42,320 nucleotides of DNA from Fibrobacter sp. UWH6 (lineage in GTDB: Bacteria; Fibrobacterota; Fibrobacteria; Fibrobacterales; Fibrobacteraceae): assembly GCF_900142465.1 (NCBI RefSeq), contig NZ_FRAX01000023.1, forward strand, positions 1 to 42,320, written 5' to 3'. The notes under the pieces were generated by a model, which was not told the origin of the DNA, did not search any database, and saw only the letters and a program-made list of their open reading frames with translations. Made by a program: the position numbers and the translations under genes. This document shows, piece by piece, positions 2,699 to 37,865 of this stretch (position 1 is its first letter; each line of letters starts with the position of its first letter).

Positions 2699-4231
2699 AT
2701 GAAGAGAATTACCTCCCTGAAGATCGAGAAGCTGTTCGGTACTTTCGACTACGAAATTGATTTCGAGAAGACCGACGGTTTTACCATTTTGACTGCACCC
2801 AATGGTTTCGGCAAGTCCACCGTCCTGAAGATTATCCGTGCTGCCGCCGTGGGCAATTTCTGCTATTTTGCGGGCCTGGTTTTTGACCGTATCGAAATGA
2901 AGTTCAAGGGCACCATGGGAGACGAGTGGAGACCTAGAATGGGGCCGGGATCGGAACCTCTCAGTGACGAGGAGGCGGCAAGGCCCAAGGAAACCATATT
3001 GTTCATCGAGAAGACGGCCCGTGTCGTGGAGGAGTCGGAAGAGGAGGCCTCATCTTCTGAGAATAGCGACGAGGAGACTTTCCAGCCTTACGTTTGCCGC
3101 ATCTGTTGCGATGACTTCGAGAATTTCTTTACGGATGAGGATATCGACCGTTCCGTCAGCGAGGTGGTGGGTTCCATCCAGACATTGGAGCCCATGTACC
3201 AATATATGTCAAATGGGTCCTGCAGACTTTGGAAAGACAAGAAGGATGGGGAAGTCTTCGACATGTCGGGTGTGTTCCGCAGGTACAGTCTGCACTTCCG
3301 CAGGATATTCCCGTGGCTTGTCACATTGGTGCGTCGCCTGAATTTCGAGGTGAACTACATCAGTACCAACCGCCTGTACAACGAAGAGATCGAAAGGTCG
3401 GTTTCGGGTTTCGCCGGACGCGTTCGTGGCCGTCAGATCGAAGAGGGGCAGGACCTGGGGCTGAACCCTCACCTTCTGAAGATTTTCAGTATCAGTGACG
3501 ATATCCGTGCGGCTCATAACCGCTGCATGCGGGCGCAGCTCCAGATTGCCCGAAATCTTGAATCCAACTTCGTGGACCGTGTGGTGGAAACGCTGAACCA
3601 GAAAAATCGTCCTTCCGCCGAGGAGACCCGCAAGAAGATTTCCTCCAAGATGACTTCCATCGCCAGGCTGGAGAAGAGTTGCAACGAGTTCGGTATCATT
3701 ACTTCGGCCAACAAGAAGAAGAGCAAGAATCCCGAGACCGATGACGATTCCGCATTGATCGTGTTCAGCATGTATCTGGATGATGTGAAGGCCAAGATGG
3801 ATGTTTTTGAACCGCTGATCAAGAAGCTGAAGATTTTCTCGGAGTCGCTGAAGGAACTGCTGGACCTGAAGACGGTTACCATCAATCTCTCGGACTGGGA
3901 AAGTATCCTGGGAATCAAGAATTCCAGGTCCGGTGCAGCCATTCCCCTGGATGCCCTGTCTTCTGGTGAACAGCATCTGATTGTGCTTCTGGGGCGTCTG
4001 CTTTTTGATGCCAATAATTCCGAGGCGCTGGTGATGATGGACGAACCTGAAATTTCCTTCCACCCCAGTTGGCAGGAGGAGTTTTCTGAGATCCTCTTCA
4101 AGATTCAGAACGAGTCCCGCGATGCGAAGAACGCAAGGCCCAAGCGCCAGTTTATCGTGGCGACTCATTCGCCGGCCTTTATCGGCGATCACTGGGACAA
4201 GACTGTGGAACTGGCCAAGATGGTCAAGTAG
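2699..4231 (+). CDS. ariA: AriA-like ABC-type ATPase of a PARIS-like anti-phage system
   Basis: The 510-residue protein is an SMC/RecF-type ATPase. The Walker A motif is APNGFGKST at residues 33-41. An ABC signature-like LSSGEQ lies at 420-425, Walker B MMDEPE at 446-451, and a switch histidine in ATHSP near 490. The middle carries an acidic insert rich in E and S (about 105-125) and helical segments that could form a short coiled coil. The gene is followed after 6 bases by a DUF4435 gene. In PARIS, AriA is the ATPase that holds the Toprim effector AriB until a phage anti-restriction protein is sensed. The role is inferred from this pairing and the motifs; another ATPase/DUF4435 family is possible. 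Confidence 0.72.
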   Translation: MKRITSLKIEKLFGTFDYEIDFEKTDGFTILTAPNGFGKSTVLKIIRAAAVGNFCYFAGLVFDRIEMKFKGTMGDEWRPRMGPGSEPLSDEEAARPKETILFIEKTARVVEESEEEASSSENSDEETFQPYVCRICCDDFENFFTDEDIDRSVSEVVGSIQTLEPMYQYMSNGSCRLWKDKKDGEVFDMSGVFRRYSLHFRRIFPWLVTLVRRLNFEVNYISTNRLYNEEIERSVSGFAGRVRGRQIEEGQDLGLNPHLLKIFSISDDIRAAHNRCMRAQLQIARNLESNFVDRVVETLNQKNRPSAEETRKKISSKMTSIARLEKSCNEFGIITSANKKKSKNPETDDDSALIVFSMYLDDVKAKMDVFEPLIKKLKIFSESLKELLDLKTVTINLSDWESILGIKNSRSGAAIPLDALSSGEQHLIVLLGRLLFDANNSEALVMMDEPEISFHPSWQEEFSEILFKIQNESRDAKNARPKRQFIVATHSPAFIGDHWDKTVELAKMVK

Positions 4232-4237
4232 GTTCGG

Positions 4238-5257
4238 ATGGCTTTCGAGTACCTGGAAGATTTTGGCAGGAAGCGTCCCGCTTACGACGTGAATCTGGCA
4301 CGAATGCGCAATGACGCCCATTCGGATAAGATTACGTTGTTTGTAGAAGGGGATGACGACCGCACATTCTTCCGGAGTCACCTGAAGGACCGTCTTAAAT
4401 GGAAAATCGAATTCGGCCCCAAGAAGAAGGGCGTGCTTGCCCGCTACCGGAAATACCTGGAAAATCCGACGGTCCATTTTGCGGTGTTCTGCGTGGATCT
4501 GGATTTTGACTTTGCCGTGGAACTTTTGAAAAAATCAAGGGATGACAGTTCGCGGATCATCGATGATGAACAGCTGCTGTATCAGCTTTTTGATGTAGAC
4601 GCCTGCGCCGGCTTTAACGATCTTGAAACGTTCCTGTTCCTGTCGGATTCCTATTCTGGCATGATGGTGGAATATTATGACGATGACGAAATCATCGAGA
4701 GTATCCGTGACGGGATCAAGACGGTGGGCGTGACCATGGGGGCTTTGCGGGTGGCGAATATCCTGGTTCGCGAGGAATGGGGTTTGCCTGACGATGCCTC
4801 GATGCTGTGTCAGCGGGAGGGCGGGAATCATGGCTGCCTGAAGTTTGATGTGGACTTTATGGATTCCTTCGGCTTGCTGGACCTGAAACATCTGACTTCT
4901 GCAAGCTTGGAACTGATCGGCGAGAACTTGATGCTGGCCTTTTCGGAGAATGAATATACTGAACACTTGCCTGCCGTTATAAAGAGGGCGGCGGAGGTCC
5001 TGGATTTTATCGAGGGCCACCCGAAATATTTTGCCAATTTCCTGCGGGGCCACGACCTGATGGATTTGCTTGCCCGTAGAATGGCCTTTGACAGGAACCG
5101 CAAGGGGAGTTCATTCAAGTCCAGGAAAAAACTGCCCGATGGCGGCAAGGTGGATTTCGAGAAATTCCGCGAAGAGCTGGAATCGGACCTTCGAAAGGCG
5201 GCAGGCGATTCCATGGAGCGGATCAAGGAATTCCCCCTGGGCAGATTGCTGAAATAA
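4238..5257 (+). CDS. ariB: AriB-like DUF4435 Toprim-type effector of a PARIS-like system
   Basis: The 339-residue protein has the DUF4435/Toprim layout. The motif LFVEGDDDRTFF puts the acidic residue at E37. It is followed by a glycine-containing segment (GPKKKGVL) and by FCVDLDFDF, giving the D87-x-D89 pair that binds metal in Toprim nucleases. DLETFLF matches the DUF4435 pattern of an acidic residue before an aromatic strand. AriB of PARIS is a nuclease that cleaves host tRNA once released by AriA, stopping phage growth. The gene is 6 bases after the ATPase gene, so the two are probably co-expressed. Toxicity and target are not visible in the sequence. Confidence 0.72.
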   Translation: MAFEYLEDFGRKRPAYDVNLARMRNDAHSDKITLFVEGDDDRTFFRSHLKDRLKWKIEFGPKKKGVLARYRKYLENPTVHFAVFCVDLDFDFAVELLKKSRDDSSRIIDDEQLLYQLFDVDACAGFNDLETFLFLSDSYSGMMVEYYDDDEIIESIRDGIKTVGVTMGALRVANILVREEWGLPDDASMLCQREGGNHGCLKFDVDFMDSFGLLDLKHLTSASLELIGENLMLAFSENEYTEHLPAVIKRAAEVLDFIEGHPKYFANFLRGHDLMDLLARRMAFDRNRKGSSFKSRKKLPDGGKVDFEKFREELESDLRKAAGDSMERIKEFPLGRLLK

Positions 5258-14959: not shown

Positions 14960-15041
14960 GGCGTGGTGTCGTTCTTCGCTTACTTACAGACTGAGGCTCG
15001 GCAAAGCCATTACGCATAAATAAACGACAACAACCCACGCC
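14960..15041 (-). repeat. Structured hairpin element E1 (inverted copy)
   Basis: Two adjacent stems, GGCGTGG/CCACGCC (14960-14966, 15035-15041) and TGTCGTT/AACGACA (14967-14973, 15023-15029), are separated on one side by a 5-base bulge. On the minus strand the loop holds GCGTAATGGC, then TTTGCCGAGCC, then CAGTCT. The same loop words occur in elements E2 and E3 on the plus strand, while the stems differ completely. No coding function is seen here. Confidence 0.6.
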
Positions 15042-15064
15042 CCAATGGGACGTGAGCGTTTGCC

Positions 15065-15118
15065 TGCTATCTTCTGCGTTTGTGAATTTTGCCGATTCCA
15101 GTCTAGAAGATAAGAGCA
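15065..15118 (+). repeat. Structured hairpin element E2
   Basis: TATCTTCT (15068-15075) pairs with AGAAGATA (15105-15112). TGC (15065-15067) pairs with GCA (15116-15118) across a 3-base bulge. The loop begins GCGT and ends TTTGCCGATTCCAGTCT, the same 17 bases as in E3. Confidence 0.6.
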
Positions 15119-15240
15119 AAGCTCAAAAAAATCCGGTCGCGGTTTCTCGCTATGTAAAACGAAAGTTAGATAAAATTTTTTAGTAGGTCAATAAATAGTA
15201 TTAGACGACAGTGAATTTTGGACGTTGGTGGTGATAGGGA

Positions 15241-15311
15241 TGGTGCAACCAAAGCTATCAAGGGCGTAATTATTTGCCGATTCCAGTCTCCTTGATAACC
15301 TGGTTGCACCA
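15241..15311 (+). repeat. Structured hairpin element E3
   Basis: An outer perfect 11-bp stem (TGGTGCAACCA 15241-15251, TGGTTGCACCA 15301-15311) and an inner 8-bp stem (TATCAAGG 15256-15263, CCTTGATA 15290-15297) are separated by bulges of 4 and 3 bases. The loop starts GCGTAAT and ends TTTGCCGATTCCAGTCT. It lies about 40 bases past the viperin stop codon, so it could also be a 3' structure of that transcript. The rest of 14865-15352 holds no supported gene. Confidence 0.65.
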
Positions 15312-15352
15312 AATTTATGAGCCGTTGAGGGATGCTCTTGGGGCGTGGTGAC

Positions 15353-16354
15353 TTAATCCTTGTCTCCAAATGGGCAGCAGCAGTCGAAAGAAACGTCTTC
15401 GTATTCGTTCATAAGGAAGAACTCCTCCATGCGATATTTGGCCTCTTCGGTGGCGTAGTTTTCATAACGGTTGTTAAACTTTTCCTGGTCAAAGTTGATT
15501 TCCTCCAGGGCTTCATCAATAGAAATTTCAGTGAGGGGGTGGCTGTATTCGTATTCCTTGTGACCATTCTGGAAAAGTCTTCCGTCGGGAGCGATCATCA
15601 GGTAGCTTTCTGTCATGACATCGTTGTCTTCAACGAAAATGACGTTGTTTTGTTTTTGGGGTGCGCTGAAGGCCGCCAAGAAATTGCTCAGAGGATCTTT
15701 CTTTGGCATTTTTTCTTCCTTGAGATTGTTGAACAGGAAGGTGTTGAACTTGAAATCAGAAATGCCTTCTTTTCCATCAAAAGGCAGCTGACGAAGAATC
15801 TTCCACTTGTCAATTTTCAGTTCGGCCATACGGTCCACAAGAATTTCGTTGAAGTTGTATTCGTTCACTACGGTGTTGATTTTGATATTGAGGCCAGGAT
15901 TAAGAGTGCGGAGTTCCTCCAACTTTTCCTTCAACTGCTGAAAGGAAATAGTCTTACCATTGCATTCCCTGCCTATTCTCACATTGGTTTTGTGATCGAA
16001 GGAATCAATGGAAACTCCTACCTGGGAAATCAAGTGGACGAAGGGACAGATGTATTCAAGATGGCTTCCGTTGGTAATAATGGAAATTTCGAAGTCCATT
16101 TCGTGAGCCATTTTGATGACCTGCCAAAGACGTTCCTGCTGCAGAATGGGCTCTCCGCCTACGATATTGAGACGCTTTTGGGTGAAGAGGCAATCTTCGA
16201 GGCGAATGCTTTTAAGATTTTCAAGTATCTTTCGGACATTGTCTGGGTTTGTCCAGATTTCCTTGACTCGATTCCATTTCGCAAAACAGTATTTGCACTT
16301 GTAGTTACAAGATTCGGTGATGTGCCAGTTGATGACGATGGTCTTGATGTTCAT
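15353..16354 (-). CDS. Prokaryotic viperin (antiviral radical SAM enzyme)
   Basis: The 333-residue protein starts MNIKTIVINWHITESCNYKC. The radical SAM cluster is C16-x3-C20-x2-C23, in the viperin form CNYKCKYCFAKW. NIVGGEP (63-69) is the SAM-binding motif. Later segments follow viperin order: KWKILRQLPFDG, then an acidic VEDNDVMTESYLMIAPDGR, then SIDEALEEINFDQEKF. Viperins make 3'-deoxy-3',4'-didehydro nucleoside triphosphates that end RNA chains made by phage polymerases. AGGAG lies before the ATG at 16354; an upstream in-frame extension would overlap the preceding gene and is rejected. The small HicA-like gene ends 16 bases upstream, giving a two-gene operon. Nucleotide preference cannot be read from the sequence. 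Confidence 0.85.
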   Translation of the reverse strand: MNIKTIVINWHITESCNYKCKYCFAKWNRVKEIWTNPDNVRKILENLKSIRLEDCLFTQKRLNIVGGEPILQQERLWQVIKMAHEMDFEISIITNGSHLEYICPFVHLISQVGVSIDSFDHKTNVRIGRECNGKTISFQQLKEKLEELRTLNPGLNIKINTVVNEYNFNEILVDRMAELKIDKWKILRQLPFDGKEGISDFKFNTFLFNNLKEEKMPKKDPLSNFLAAFSAPQKQNNVIFVEDNDVMTESYLMIAPDGRLFQNGHKEYEYSHPLTEISIDEALEEINFDQEKFNNRYENYATEEAKYRMEEFFLMNEYEDVSFDCCCPFGDKD

Positions 16355-16370
16355 TGGTGGGCTCCTGGGT

Positions 16371-16613
16371 TTATCGGATGATAGTGCCTGTTTGAATGAG
16401 ATAGTTGCGTAGATATCTGAGGTAGTCTCTCTTGAAGTTGGAATAGGCGCGTGGATCGCTGGGGGTACACGGAACAGAGAAGAACATTCTCGCTCCTTTT
16501 GCGACATGCTTGATTACCGTATGTTTTCCCTTGCGAACGACTTGCCAAAGGCCTGTAGCCAAAAGGCGGTTGCAGAGGGTGTTGATTTCTTTGTCGGTTG
16601 ACAGATTTGCCAT
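16371..16613 (-). CDS. Small HicA-like / dsRNA-binding-fold protein upstream of viperin
   Basis: The 80-residue protein reads MANLSTDKEINTLCNRLLAT, then GLWQVVRKGKHTVIKH, then ARMFFSVPCTPSDPRAYSNF. The order of a helix, a W-x-V-x-RKGKH strand pair with a conserved histidine, a strand ending VPxTPSD and a C-terminal helix resembles HicA toxins and related small phage proteins. HicA normally has a HicB partner; none is seen here. AGGAG precedes the ATG and the viperin gene follows 16 bases later, so they should be co-transcribed. It could be an RNA-binding regulator or accessory factor. The family assignment is tentative, the reading frame is not. Confidence 0.72.
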   Translation of the reverse strand: MANLSTDKEINTLCNRLLATGLWQVVRKGKHTVIKHVAKGARMFFSVPCTPSDPRAYSNFKRDYLRYLRNYLIQTGTIIR

Positions 16614-16694
16614 TTAGAACTCCTTTTTGGGTGCGAACAAATGGAGTAAAAGGAGAAACCAAATCCTACTGTAGAATGTTGACGAAAATTTTCT
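16614..16694 (-). promoter_or_regulatory. Probable promoter region of the viperin operon
   Basis: This 80-base gap between the upstream terminator and the HicA-like start must carry the operon promoter if the terminator is effective. No single -35/-10 pair stands out; TACAGT and TAGGAT words are possible -10 boxes on the minus strand. Confidence 0.3.
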
Positions 16695-16743
16695 AAACAG
16701 CAAAAACGGCGATTTTCAATGAAAATCACCGTTTTTGCTGTTT
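16695..16743 (-). terminator. Long intrinsic terminator
   Basis: A 15-bp outer stem (16695-16709 with 16729-16743) and a 7-bp inner stem (GATTTTC/GAAAATC) are separated by one C/A mismatch and close on a 3-base loop. Arms contain AACAGCAAAAACGG. It lies just past the stop of the 822-residue gene and isolates it from the viperin operon. Confidence 0.8.
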
Positions 16744-16755
16744 ACTTGTTTTTTA

Positions 16756-19224
16756 TTATTGCAAGGAAGCTAGGTATTCTTTGACTTCTCTGCAACGATT
16801 TGATCTGTATTCGTGATTAGGATAATCGTTGGAACGGAATTTTTTTTCCCATTCTTGGGCGTAAATTTTAAGTTTCTCTACATCAGGGGCGCCGTAGTCT
16901 GATTCCTGTTTTTGGGCAGACTCAATCATTAACCGTACTCCATCGAGCCAACCGACTTCAATCGCTTCGTAAATCGGGTTGTACTCTTTTTGTCGTTGAA
17001 CGGTTGTTCCGTCCATGGCGACTTGAGGATTTGCATGGTTTTCTAACAGTAGTTTGAGCATGCTTAGCATTTTTTGTTCGGATAGGGTTTCCTTTATATA
17101 TTTTCGTTCCCAGACTTCTAAAAGGTTTTGCGCCCAACAGTCGATTGGTGAATTTAGCTTGACAAAGGCATCCATTCTTTGCTCTGCGAAGGTTGCGGAA
17201 TTATTTGGTTCAGTGATGTTCCGATGTTTTGCCAATAATTCGTCTGCGTTGTGACCGAGTTTTCTAAAAAATGATGAGTCAGGGCGCTCCTTAAAATCTT
17301 TAAGATAAAGATCCAAATCGTAAATATAATGGTATTGGCGGATAATCCAATAAATGGGTGGCCTTGGTTGAACCTTTTCGGCAAGCTTGTTGATCCATTT
17401 TTTTTGATCATTTCCACAATAGATTTTGTACAAATCGATAACCTTGCATAAAACTTCTAAATTTCCGGAACATGCTGCTTGATTTAGAATGGATTCATAG
17501 GATGAAGTTAGTTCCCGGAAAGTTCTAGAAGGGGAATTACCTTTGTCTTGTTTATAGTGGGGAATGAGGGCCTTGAAAATTCTGTAGGCATTTTTCCATT
17601 GGCTGTCTTTTCGTTCTTTAAAAACCTTGTACGAATCATTGATGCAGTCATCGATATTTTTGCAAGCCTTATATGATTCAAGAAATGTATGGTAGGGCGC
17701 CTCTTTGTCTGCGTATATGTATTCGGTTAATTCTTTGTTTTCGTAAAGCAGAGGGGATTTGGGTGGACAAACGTAAGTCCTTCCGTAGGAAAGATGTTGG
17801 GATAAATTTAGATAGGTAAGGTTCCAAAACAACGCAGAATCATTCACTGGACTTGTGTTGGCGACATAGGCGCCTTTTTCCAACAGATTTTCAACAATCT
17901 CGGGTTCATTTAATTGGGTAAAGAAAATGAGCTGGGGACAATTGCTTGTGTTACCGAATGAAATTTTTTTCTGGTTCACTTTTTTATAATCGGGTGAGGG
18001 AATGGTTGCCTTGTATTTTGGAAGCTTAATGTATGAAAATTGAAAAAGAGGCCATTCCTTGAATCGCTTTTGGTATCGATTCATAATAATGGTTTCTTTG
18101 TCTTTTTCTTCCAAGTTGAATTCGTTAAGTTCTATTTTTAGAAAACATCCCATGGAGTATATTCTTTTAAATAGAGCTTTTAAAGATTTCTTTTTGTTTT
18201 TGTCTACGTTATTACGGCTGCAAAGATCAGCAATGAAAGACAGGAATAGGCTATACCATTCCCATGATGAATTTAATTCCTCAACTTCAGGGCTACCATT
18301 ATAGAAATAGAGCGGAACCATTTTTTCTAAAAGAACAAGAGCCTCTTTGTCTTTGTGTTGCAATAACAGATGTTTAAAATCCATAAGAATGAGGTAAGGA
18401 TAAACATAAGAATGGCAACAGTCTTTTAATTTATTGATTCGTTCGTCATTATCTTTGAGGGAGTAGGGCATTTTGGGACCTTTGACTAGTTCAAAGGTTT
18501 TCTCTGCTTCTATGCAATCTTTATCAATTTTTTGTCGTATTTCTTTGGAAGTATTTTCAAAAGGGTATTTTTCAAATGATTTTTGCCAGAACCATAGTGA
18601 CAGCAGTTTTTCTCTGAAAAAAGAAACCTTTTGTATGGATGATTGCTCTACACGATCAAGAAAAGAGAGCAAGGTATCAATTTGAGGAGTAACCCCTTGC
18701 TTCCACTGATAATAGTTTTCCAGGACATCTGAATTGTTTTGCTGTGATAACTGTAAAGGTGAACTTAACCTTTCTATTTCATTGATGCACTTTGTAAAAG
18801 GCTTTTTCTCTTTCGGACGATCTTTGATCCAAATGTCACTATGGTTGTCTTCGCATAGATTAAAGGTATCACGAAAAAAAAGGTGCATTAAACCGACCAA
18901 GTGTGCATTTTTTTCATATAGTGGATCAAATTCATGTTTTACAACAGAGATGAAGTCATCTCTAAATTTTTTGTAATTCAATTCAAATGTGTTTAGGTAA
19001 ATTTGAATGTCTCTTACTTGAATATTTTGTCTTCCCAAGTTACAATTTGAGATTCTCATTTTTACTTTTTCAAAAGAATCCTCATGGTCTGTTTCGTAAC
19101 CTGAAATTTTTTTTGAACAAGGAAGAAAATCATCTAATGCCAGTAAAGTCTCTTCTAAGGAAGGGAACCGCTCTTTCAATCTCATGGGACAGGCTAAAAA
19201 ATCATTGTACTCTTTCATTGACAT
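16756..19224 (-). CDS. Large A+T-rich protein of unknown function with ankyrin-like segments
   Basis: The 822-residue protein has no signal peptide and no clear membrane segment. It is rich in K, E, N, F and Y, and its codons are visibly A+T-rich compared with flanking genes, which suggests horizontal transfer. Two stretches look like ankyrin repeats: FFTQLNEPEIVENLLEKGAY near the middle, and LLENHANPQVAMDG with YEAIEVGWLDGVRLMIE near the C-terminus. The N-terminal two thirds is mostly helical with no known catalytic motif. A GGAGG site lies 11 bases before the ATG at 19224. It has its own terminator and the viperin operon follows on the same strand. A defence role is inferred only from position and composition. 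Confidence 0.7.
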   Translation of the reverse strand: MSMKEYNDFLACPMRLKERFPSLEETLLALDDFLPCSKKISGYETDHEDSFEKVKMRISNCNLGRQNIQVRDIQIYLNTFELNYKKFRDDFISVVKHEFDPLYEKNAHLVGLMHLFFRDTFNLCEDNHSDIWIKDRPKEKKPFTKCINEIERLSSPLQLSQQNNSDVLENYYQWKQGVTPQIDTLLSFLDRVEQSSIQKVSFFREKLLSLWFWQKSFEKYPFENTSKEIRQKIDKDCIEAEKTFELVKGPKMPYSLKDNDERINKLKDCCHSYVYPYLILMDFKHLLLQHKDKEALVLLEKMVPLYFYNGSPEVEELNSSWEWYSLFLSFIADLCSRNNVDKNKKKSLKALFKRIYSMGCFLKIELNEFNLEEKDKETIIMNRYQKRFKEWPLFQFSYIKLPKYKATIPSPDYKKVNQKKISFGNTSNCPQLIFFTQLNEPEIVENLLEKGAYVANTSPVNDSALFWNLTYLNLSQHLSYGRTYVCPPKSPLLYENKELTEYIYADKEAPYHTFLESYKACKNIDDCINDSYKVFKERKDSQWKNAYRIFKALIPHYKQDKGNSPSRTFRELTSSYESILNQAACSGNLEVLCKVIDLYKIYCGNDQKKWINKLAEKVQPRPPIYWIIRQYHYIYDLDLYLKDFKERPDSSFFRKLGHNADELLAKHRNITEPNNSATFAEQRMDAFVKLNSPIDCWAQNLLEVWERKYIKETLSEQKMLSMLKLLLENHANPQVAMDGTTVQRQKEYNPIYEAIEVGWLDGVRLMIESAQKQESDYGAPDVEKLKIYAQEWEKKFRSNDYPNHEYRSNRCREVKEYLASLQ

Positions 19225-19358
19225 AAGGAAACTACCTCCACATTACAAATCAATATTATTTCTTTTTGCTTAGCAAATGTCTTTGAAAAAAAGTTGTGGA
19301 TAAATAGAGAAAGATGTTGATATGTTGGCCTCTTTTTTAACAAGCTGCTTTGCTTCTT

Positions 19359-37338: not shown

Positions 37339-37653
37339 ATGGAAATAGATTTCGAGTGGGATGAAAAGAAGAATGAGATAAATCGGAAAAAACATGGCGT
37401 ATCTTTTGAAGAAGCCAAGAGTTGCTTTGAAGATGATCATGCTAGAGTTTTCTTTGATGTAGAACATTCAAAAGATGAAGATCGTTCTATTCTTATAGGA
37501 TTGTCTTCTGAACTAAGAACCTTGATTGTTGTCTATACGGAACGTGTTAATGATGATGATGATTTGATTGTCAATCGCATCATTAGTGCCCGGAAAGCGA
37601 CGAAGAAAGAGTTTCAGTATTATTGGAATGCGCGTAAAGGAGATGAACCATGA
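37339..37653 (+). CDS. brnT: BrnT-family toxin
   Basis: The 104-residue protein starts MEIDFEWDEKKNEINRKKHG, which is the BrnT opening (F-x-W-D-x-x-K-x-x-x-N-x-x-KHG-V-x-F). RSILIGLSSELRTLIVVYTER and RIISARKATKKEFQYY complete the family. BrnT is a ribonuclease-type toxin that blocks translation until bound by BrnA. A GAGGT site precedes the ATG. The stop codon overlaps the brnA start by four bases, as is usual for this pair. Confidence 0.93.
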   Translation: MEIDFEWDEKKNEINRKKHGVSFEEAKSCFEDDHARVFFDVEHSKDEDRSILIGLSSELRTLIVVYTERVNDDDDLIVNRIISARKATKKEFQYYWNARKGDEP

Positions 37654-37865
37654 AGAAAGAGTATGATTTTGAAAAAATGAAGGCTGTAAGAAATCCTTAT
37701 GCGGCTGCATTAAAAAAACAAATTACCATTCGGTTGAATTCTTCAACCATTGAGTATTTCAAGAAAATGTCAAAGGATCAGGGCATTCCTTATCAGACTT
37801 TGATTGATTCTTATTTGACAGATTGTGCTGTCAAAAAGAGAAAGATTTCAATTGAATGGAAATAG
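37650..37865 (+). CDS. brnA: BrnA-family antitoxin
   Basis: The 71-residue protein has KKQITIRLNSSTIEYFKKMS and GIPYQTLIDSYLTDCA, the ribbon-helix-helix pattern of BrnA. It binds BrnT and its own operon promoter. AAGGAGAT precedes the ATG inside the end of brnT. The gene ends 3 bases before the convergent DUF763 gene, whose 3' end contains a terminator-like stem (CCACTC/GAGTGG then T's). Confidence 0.92.
   Translation: MKKEYDFEKMKAVRNPYAAALKKQITIRLNSSTIEYFKKMSKDQGIPYQTLIDSYLTDCAVKKRKISIEWK

Follow-up and report, generated by a model that had tools for sequence, protein, structure and literature searches.

A HicA-like gene beside a prokaryotic viperin in Fibrobacter, and its recurrence beside other radical-SAM genes

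Viperins convert a nucleoside triphosphate into its 3'-deoxy-3',4'-didehydro form, a chain terminator that blocks phage transcription. The study by Gerdes (2024, mBio, PMC10865869) describes prokaryotic viperin (pVip) genes with a hicA gene upstream (Class 9) or downstream (Class 10), and credits others (Bernheim 2021) with having noted hicA beside pVip earlier. It proposes that hicA and pVip cooperate in defence, and asks whether RNase-type toxins encoded beside pVip genes aid the antiviral action and how they would be controlled. Among the partners of such hicA genes, the paper reports only pVip (and RelE beside pVip), and neither ankyrin nor radical SAM comes up in its main text. A sequence-only reading of the locus described here had called the pairing of viperin with a small double-stranded-RNA-binding-type protein a new arrangement. 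Classes 9 and 10 already describe it, and PADLOC has a HicA-like model.

The features of this locus and of its relatives are collected in Table 1; the window is the whole stretch of DNA that was analyzed, 42,320 nucleotides long. Its source is a rumen Fibrobacter. On sequence evidence, the 333-aa product is a prokaryotic viperin, as had been claimed for the radical SAM enzyme: PADLOC's pVip model PDLC02903 matches it at 5.8e-87, NCBIfam NF038283 scores 285.3 bits (cut-off 180), and solved viperins in the PDB match at 7e-20 to 2e-19. The viperin blocks stand in order, running from SCNYKCKYCF (residues 15-24) through NIVGGEP, SIITNGS, and VSIDS to SYLMIAPDGRLFQNG, and CxxxCxxC, GGEP, NGS, and the C-terminal SYLMIxPxGRxFQNG block are all present. 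We took M52 of a longer listed open reading frame (15353-16507, minus strand) as the real start, with its ATG at 16354; the longer frame begins upstream of the ribosome-binding site.

Table 1. Features of the viperin locus in the window and of related loci elsewhere, with the evidence for each
Feature	Position	Strand	Evidence or remark
Prokaryotic viperin (pVip), radical SAM enzyme, 333 aa	15353..16354	minus	ATG start at 16354; PADLOC, NF038283, PDB viperins
CNYKCKYC codons (C16, C20, C23), predicted 4Fe-4S cluster ligands	16286..16309	minus	Translation; alignment with 18 viperins and relatives
AGGAG ribosome-binding site of viperin gene	16362..16366	minus	Sequence; within the 16-bp gap, 7 nt before the ATG
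HicA-like small protein, 80 aa	16371..16613	minus	PADLOC PDLC02910 at 9.8e-15; AF2 model; HicA entries in the VIA-align list
H31 codon in GKH, in the place of HicA's GSH histidine	16521..16523	minus	Conservation among relatives
AGGAG ribosome-binding site of HicA-like gene	16620..16624	minus	Sequence
24-bp hairpin between ankyrin-type and HicA-like genes	16694..16744		RNA fold z -6.4
Ankyrin-type protein, 822 aa	16756..19224	minus	Weak Ank_2 match (0.0036), below cut-off; relatives precede HicA-like in L088 and L089
Variable cargo	15157..19357		blastn against relative G007, which has other genes at the same chromosomal site
HicA-like gene, no gene-table entry	L132 4992-5210, Sulfitobacter plasmid		Overlaps pVip gene
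HicA-like gene, no gene-table entry	L131 6001-6228, Acinetobacter soli plasmid pAS843-2		Overlaps ankyrin gene
Dead viperin homologue, 299 aa	L072 7896-8795; L073 6775-7674; L085 6890-7789		Between HicA-like and PDC-M51A

A gap of 16 bp lies between the end of the HicA-like gene and the start codon of viperin, and an AGGAG stands in front of each gene. The range first given for the pair (15353-16613) is correct, and its operon structure, with both genes on one strand, the 16-base gap, and a separate ribosome-binding site for the small gene (AGGAG, 16624-16620), agrees with the coordinates. The absence of HicB is borne out as well: no HicB-like gene adjoins the small gene in the window, where its neighbors are pVip and an ankyrin-type gene. 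The latter lies 142 bp upstream on the same strand. Between them is a hairpin that is probably a transcription terminator; a consensus scan for intrinsic terminators did not flag it. Because the hairpin parts the ankyrin-type gene from the HicA-like gene, HicA-like and pVip likely form a two-gene transcription unit. The ankyrin-type gene, a recurrent neighbor of HicA-like, is possibly a third member.

Other parts of the window also drew attention. An AAA ATPase gene (2699-4231, plus strand) matches PADLOC AriA at 6.3e-24 and stands beside a gene for a DUF4435-like protein (4238-5257, plus strand); these two genes, 10 kb from viperin, look like a PARIS-type defence pair. Two overlapping small genes (37339-37653 and 37650-37865, plus strand) resemble BrnT/BrnA toxin-antitoxin genes by eye. 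Between pVip and a lipoprotein gene (14864-14121, minus strand) lies a structured element (14989-15312). Of 80 Fibrobacter genomes, 52 contain copies of it, and in the six cases inspected these stand just 5' of a lipoprotein-type gene. An alignment of 20 copies reveals compensatory changes in the outer helix, GACUG/CAGUC, and the strand TTGCCGATTCCAGTCT recurs at a distance of 185 nt, where its stem is a different one. An Rfam search with the element gave no match, and we regard it as a candidate leader RNA. The repeat 3' of pVip had been considered as an integron-type cassette site, an idea that we rejected since the element is dispersed and lies beside lipoprotein genes.

The 80-aa protein is HicA-like, with a putative RNase activity. 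The family membership tentatively proposed for it stood in one search and failed in another: PADLOC's HicA-like model PDLC02910 matches residues 5-63 at 9.8e-15 (52 bits, against 74-89 for most proteobacterial copies), but Pfam HicA_toxin (PF07927) gives no match to the window protein. The same Pfam model matches five of 29 relatives, weakly (best 0.0014), and a family member from Acinetobacter, which carries the annotation HicA toxin, matches it at 3.3e-4 over its GGH, below the gathering score. As the window protein has no such Pfam match, we file it as HicA-like rather than as HicA. The AF2 model (pLDDT 91.8) has helices at residues 8-19 and 56-74 and strands at 23-27, 32-36, and 44-46. This predicted alpha-beta-beta-beta-alpha order is the dsRBD-type topology of a HicA domain and agrees with the fold suggested earlier, for which a structure prediction had been proposed. 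Structural comparison gave a fainter picture. VIA-align over 996 chains placed the HicA entries 5yrz, 4p78, 6g26, 6hpb, and 4c26 at ranks 2, 3, 4, 7, and 11 with low scores (Z 3.3-4.4, the list maximum being 4.4), and its top row is unrelated to HicA. Foldseek with the model against the PDB found nothing significant (best E 0.43, with a HicA at rank 3), and a profile search of PDB sequences yielded chance matches only. The histidine of the GxH turn, the catalytic position in HicA, is represented by H31 in GKH. At least 90% of 29 relatives have it, as do 12 of 13 proteins compared across phyla, and it is kept together with a TPSDxR...NF motif in Fibrobacter, Sulfitobacter, Thauera, Vibrio, and Acinetobacter. 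A search of the window's own genome for HicA-like returned this copy alone.

To see how often the two genes stand together, we drew on 168 genomes of the phylum and on neighborhoods reaching up to about 8 kb to each side of 34 HicA-like copies in Fibrobacteraceae. HicA-like is found in 31 of the genomes, about one copy each and nearly all in Fibrobacter. For five of the phylum's 12 pVips it is the immediate neighbor in the same orientation, upstream in the window and in three other genomes (G116, G037, and G151) and downstream in a fourth (G138). The remaining seven stand without such a neighbor, and viperin therefore does not need HicA-like. Chance would give about 0.002 adjacencies against the five observed, a figure that assumes about 3000 genes per genome (our estimate), and the adjacency exceeds chance. 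On an alphaproteobacterial plasmid from Sulfitobacter, pVip and an unannotated HicA-like gene overlap by 4 nt. A survey of viperin loci for the same neighbor, called for by the sequence-only reading, thus turned up the pair in four more Fibrobacteraceae and on one Sulfitobacter plasmid. In a tree of 19 viperins and relatives, the Sulfitobacter pVip is far from the HicA-linked Fibrobacter pVips, and the tree requires the HicA-linked state to have changed two or more times. With the Sulfitobacter protein on so distant a branch, two branches at least have gained or retained the link. Among phages, a collection searched with pVip and two scans of viral contigs with HicA-like returned nothing; the phage collection searched with HicA-like gave a short match in a Synechococcus phage and a gene of an Arthrobacter phage in which the histidine is missing. 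A scan of genome contigs with a seven-sequence HicA-like set found Fibrobacter loci only.

A link with ankyrin genes recurs across phyla. The window and three other loci (L088, L089, and L080) have an ankyrin-type gene ahead of HicA-like on the same strand. On Acinetobacter soli plasmids there is a 31-nt overlap between the HicA-like gene and an ankyrin-repeat gene, and a second Sulfitobacter plasmid has HicA-like followed by an apparent ankyrin gene that an IS5 element interrupts. Comparison of the ankyrin proteins from Fibrobacter, Acinetobacter, and Sulfitobacter over their N-terminal parts gave weak hhalign scores. A further family (F11) that precedes a number of HicA-like copies was compared with the ankyrin proteins, and no relation emerged; one genome (G157) has an ankyrin gene without HicA-like.

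The small protein had been taken for a partner particular to viperin, and this claim is not supported: 29 of the 34 Fibrobacteraceae copies have another neighbor, the commonest being a radical-SAM gene of a different kind. HicA-like is not viperin-specific, because in Fibrobacteraceae it is also the companion of PDC-M51A, a PADLOC candidate from a radical-SAM family other than viperin. PDC-M51A occurs in 10 of 80 Fibrobacter genomes (it is absent from that of the window), and nine of the ten are preceded by HicA-like in the same orientation, directly in two (9 and 13 bp) and with at least one small gene between in the rest. PDC-M51B was not found near PDC-M51A in these genomes. One relative (G007) can be compared with the window at the same chromosomal site, where the flanks are 97.6% and 93.4% identical by blastn. 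Its cargo is HicA-like and PDC-M51A in place of the window's ankyrin-type gene, HicA-like, and pVip, and the HicA-like gene is all that the two cargoes have in common, at 70%. Other HicA-like copies neighbor SF1 helicase, OLD-type ATPase, type I restriction, or MoxR-type AAA genes, and about a third have no evident downstream same-strand partner. Two islands carry two copies each, 3 to 6 kb apart (L067, 5948-6193 and 9469-9723; L086, 8043-8285 and 13839-14102), and look as if they had grown by the joining of HicA-like units.

Such varied company, the frequent lack of a same-strand partner, and a window site that is itself a hotspot of exchange would suit an orphan toxin-type gene of defence islands, with no working link to viperin and an adjacency due to common hotspots. 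We hold this to be a rather improbable account, though the best placed of the alternatives, since HicA-like and its radical-SAM partners are separated by only 9-17 bp or overlap, nine of ten PDC-M51A genes are linked to it, and a distant phylum has the pVip pair again, with a pVip from another part of the viperin tree. By a modest measure, we favor instead an antiviral cassette in which HicA-like is an RNA-acting companion common to several radical-SAM defence enzymes, not a sensor specific to viperin. Viperin would here make its chain terminator from an NTP and stop phage transcription, as is established for the family, and HicA-like would be made from the same message, just before viperin. 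Most likely, it would act with the enzyme during infection as an RNase-type second effector or an RNA-binding partner, and would serve at least two unrelated radical-SAM families in Fibrobacteraceae, pVip and PDC-M51A. The most economical reading would be a two-effector antiviral unit, with HicA-like acting on RNA beside viperin as perhaps beside PDC-M51A. The family matches, AF2 topology, GKH histidine, adjacency to both enzymes, and site swap argue for an RNA-acting companion; the Pfam HicA_toxin mismatch, low structural Z, unpaired pVips, and partnerless third of copies argue against it.

At three of the loci, a second viperin homologue starts 22-31 bp behind HicA-like, and PDC-M51A then follows. 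It is related to viperin by a profile of our own (93-103 bits) and by PADLOC's pVip model (2.3e-15), and in alignment it lacks the CxxxCxxC cluster motif, GGEP, and NGS. The dN/dS between its copies is 0.13-0.30, indicating a protein kept by purifying selection rather than a decaying gene, and the 18 best PDB matches of its model (pLDDT 67.7, which is modest) are all viperins. These catalytically dead viperins have a C-terminal extension, as do all five Fibrobacteraceae pVips linked to HicA-like; in the seven pVips without that link it is missing. We rejected this extension as a general mark of HicA-linked viperins, given that the linked Sulfitobacter pVip is without it. Both the homologue and the extension would fit a role for viperin, or for its product, in restraining HicA-like as a substitute for the HicB antitoxin, the dead viperin being a pure binding partner. 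We think this unlikely, as some HicA-like copies stand alone without viperin, the Sulfitobacter pair manages without the extension, and the extension may have been inherited within one clade.

The shared RNA-acting companion may nevertheless be one part of something more modular. Tentatively, and with clear doubt, we suggest that HicA-like is the common subunit of units that have viperin or PDC-M51A as their catalytic part, and that some of them keep a dead viperin which, having no enzymatic part, would serve as an adaptor or restraint placed between HicA-like and the second enzyme. If so, bacterial viperin folds would have a binding role besides nucleotide chemistry. The question raised by Gerdes becomes testable in one genus, which offers pVip both alone and next to HicA-like, another radical-SAM enzyme paired with HicA-like at the same chromosomal site, and a dead viperin under selection, which would part viperin's role as an enzyme from its role as a binding protein. 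Very improbable, by comparison, is the earlier suggestion that HicA-like senses RNA to trigger viperin or shields the host from chain terminators, for which the modeled dsRBD-type topology is the one point in favor, given that HicA-like pairs with non-viperin enzymes, that seven of the 12 pVips do without it, and that PADLOC's viperin models split kinase-linked from kinase-free pVips, a split by which the accessory genes for nucleotide chemistry would be kinases.

Set beside known systems, the window is a further member of the hicA-pVip arrangement described in 2024. With Class 9, the likeness lies in a hicA-type gene immediately upstream of pVip on the same strand (here with a 16-bp gap), no HicB, and an alpha-beta-beta-beta-alpha HicA topology; the difference is that HicA-like in our survey has PDC-M51A and a dead viperin as further partners. 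Both window proteins match PADLOC models strongly (PDLC02903 and PDLC02910), and PADLOC assigns HicA-like no function. With HicAB type II toxin-antitoxin systems, the small protein shares the predicted HicA topology and a histidine in the GxH turn, but it has neither HicB nor a Pfam HicA match and carries the TPSDxR...NF motif in its second half. The PADLOC candidate PDC-M51A is likewise a radical-SAM enzyme behind HicA-like, but of a family other than viperin. What is new, and may be unfamiliar to specialists, is the context of HicA-like: a second radical-SAM partner, a dead viperin, and a swap at one site.
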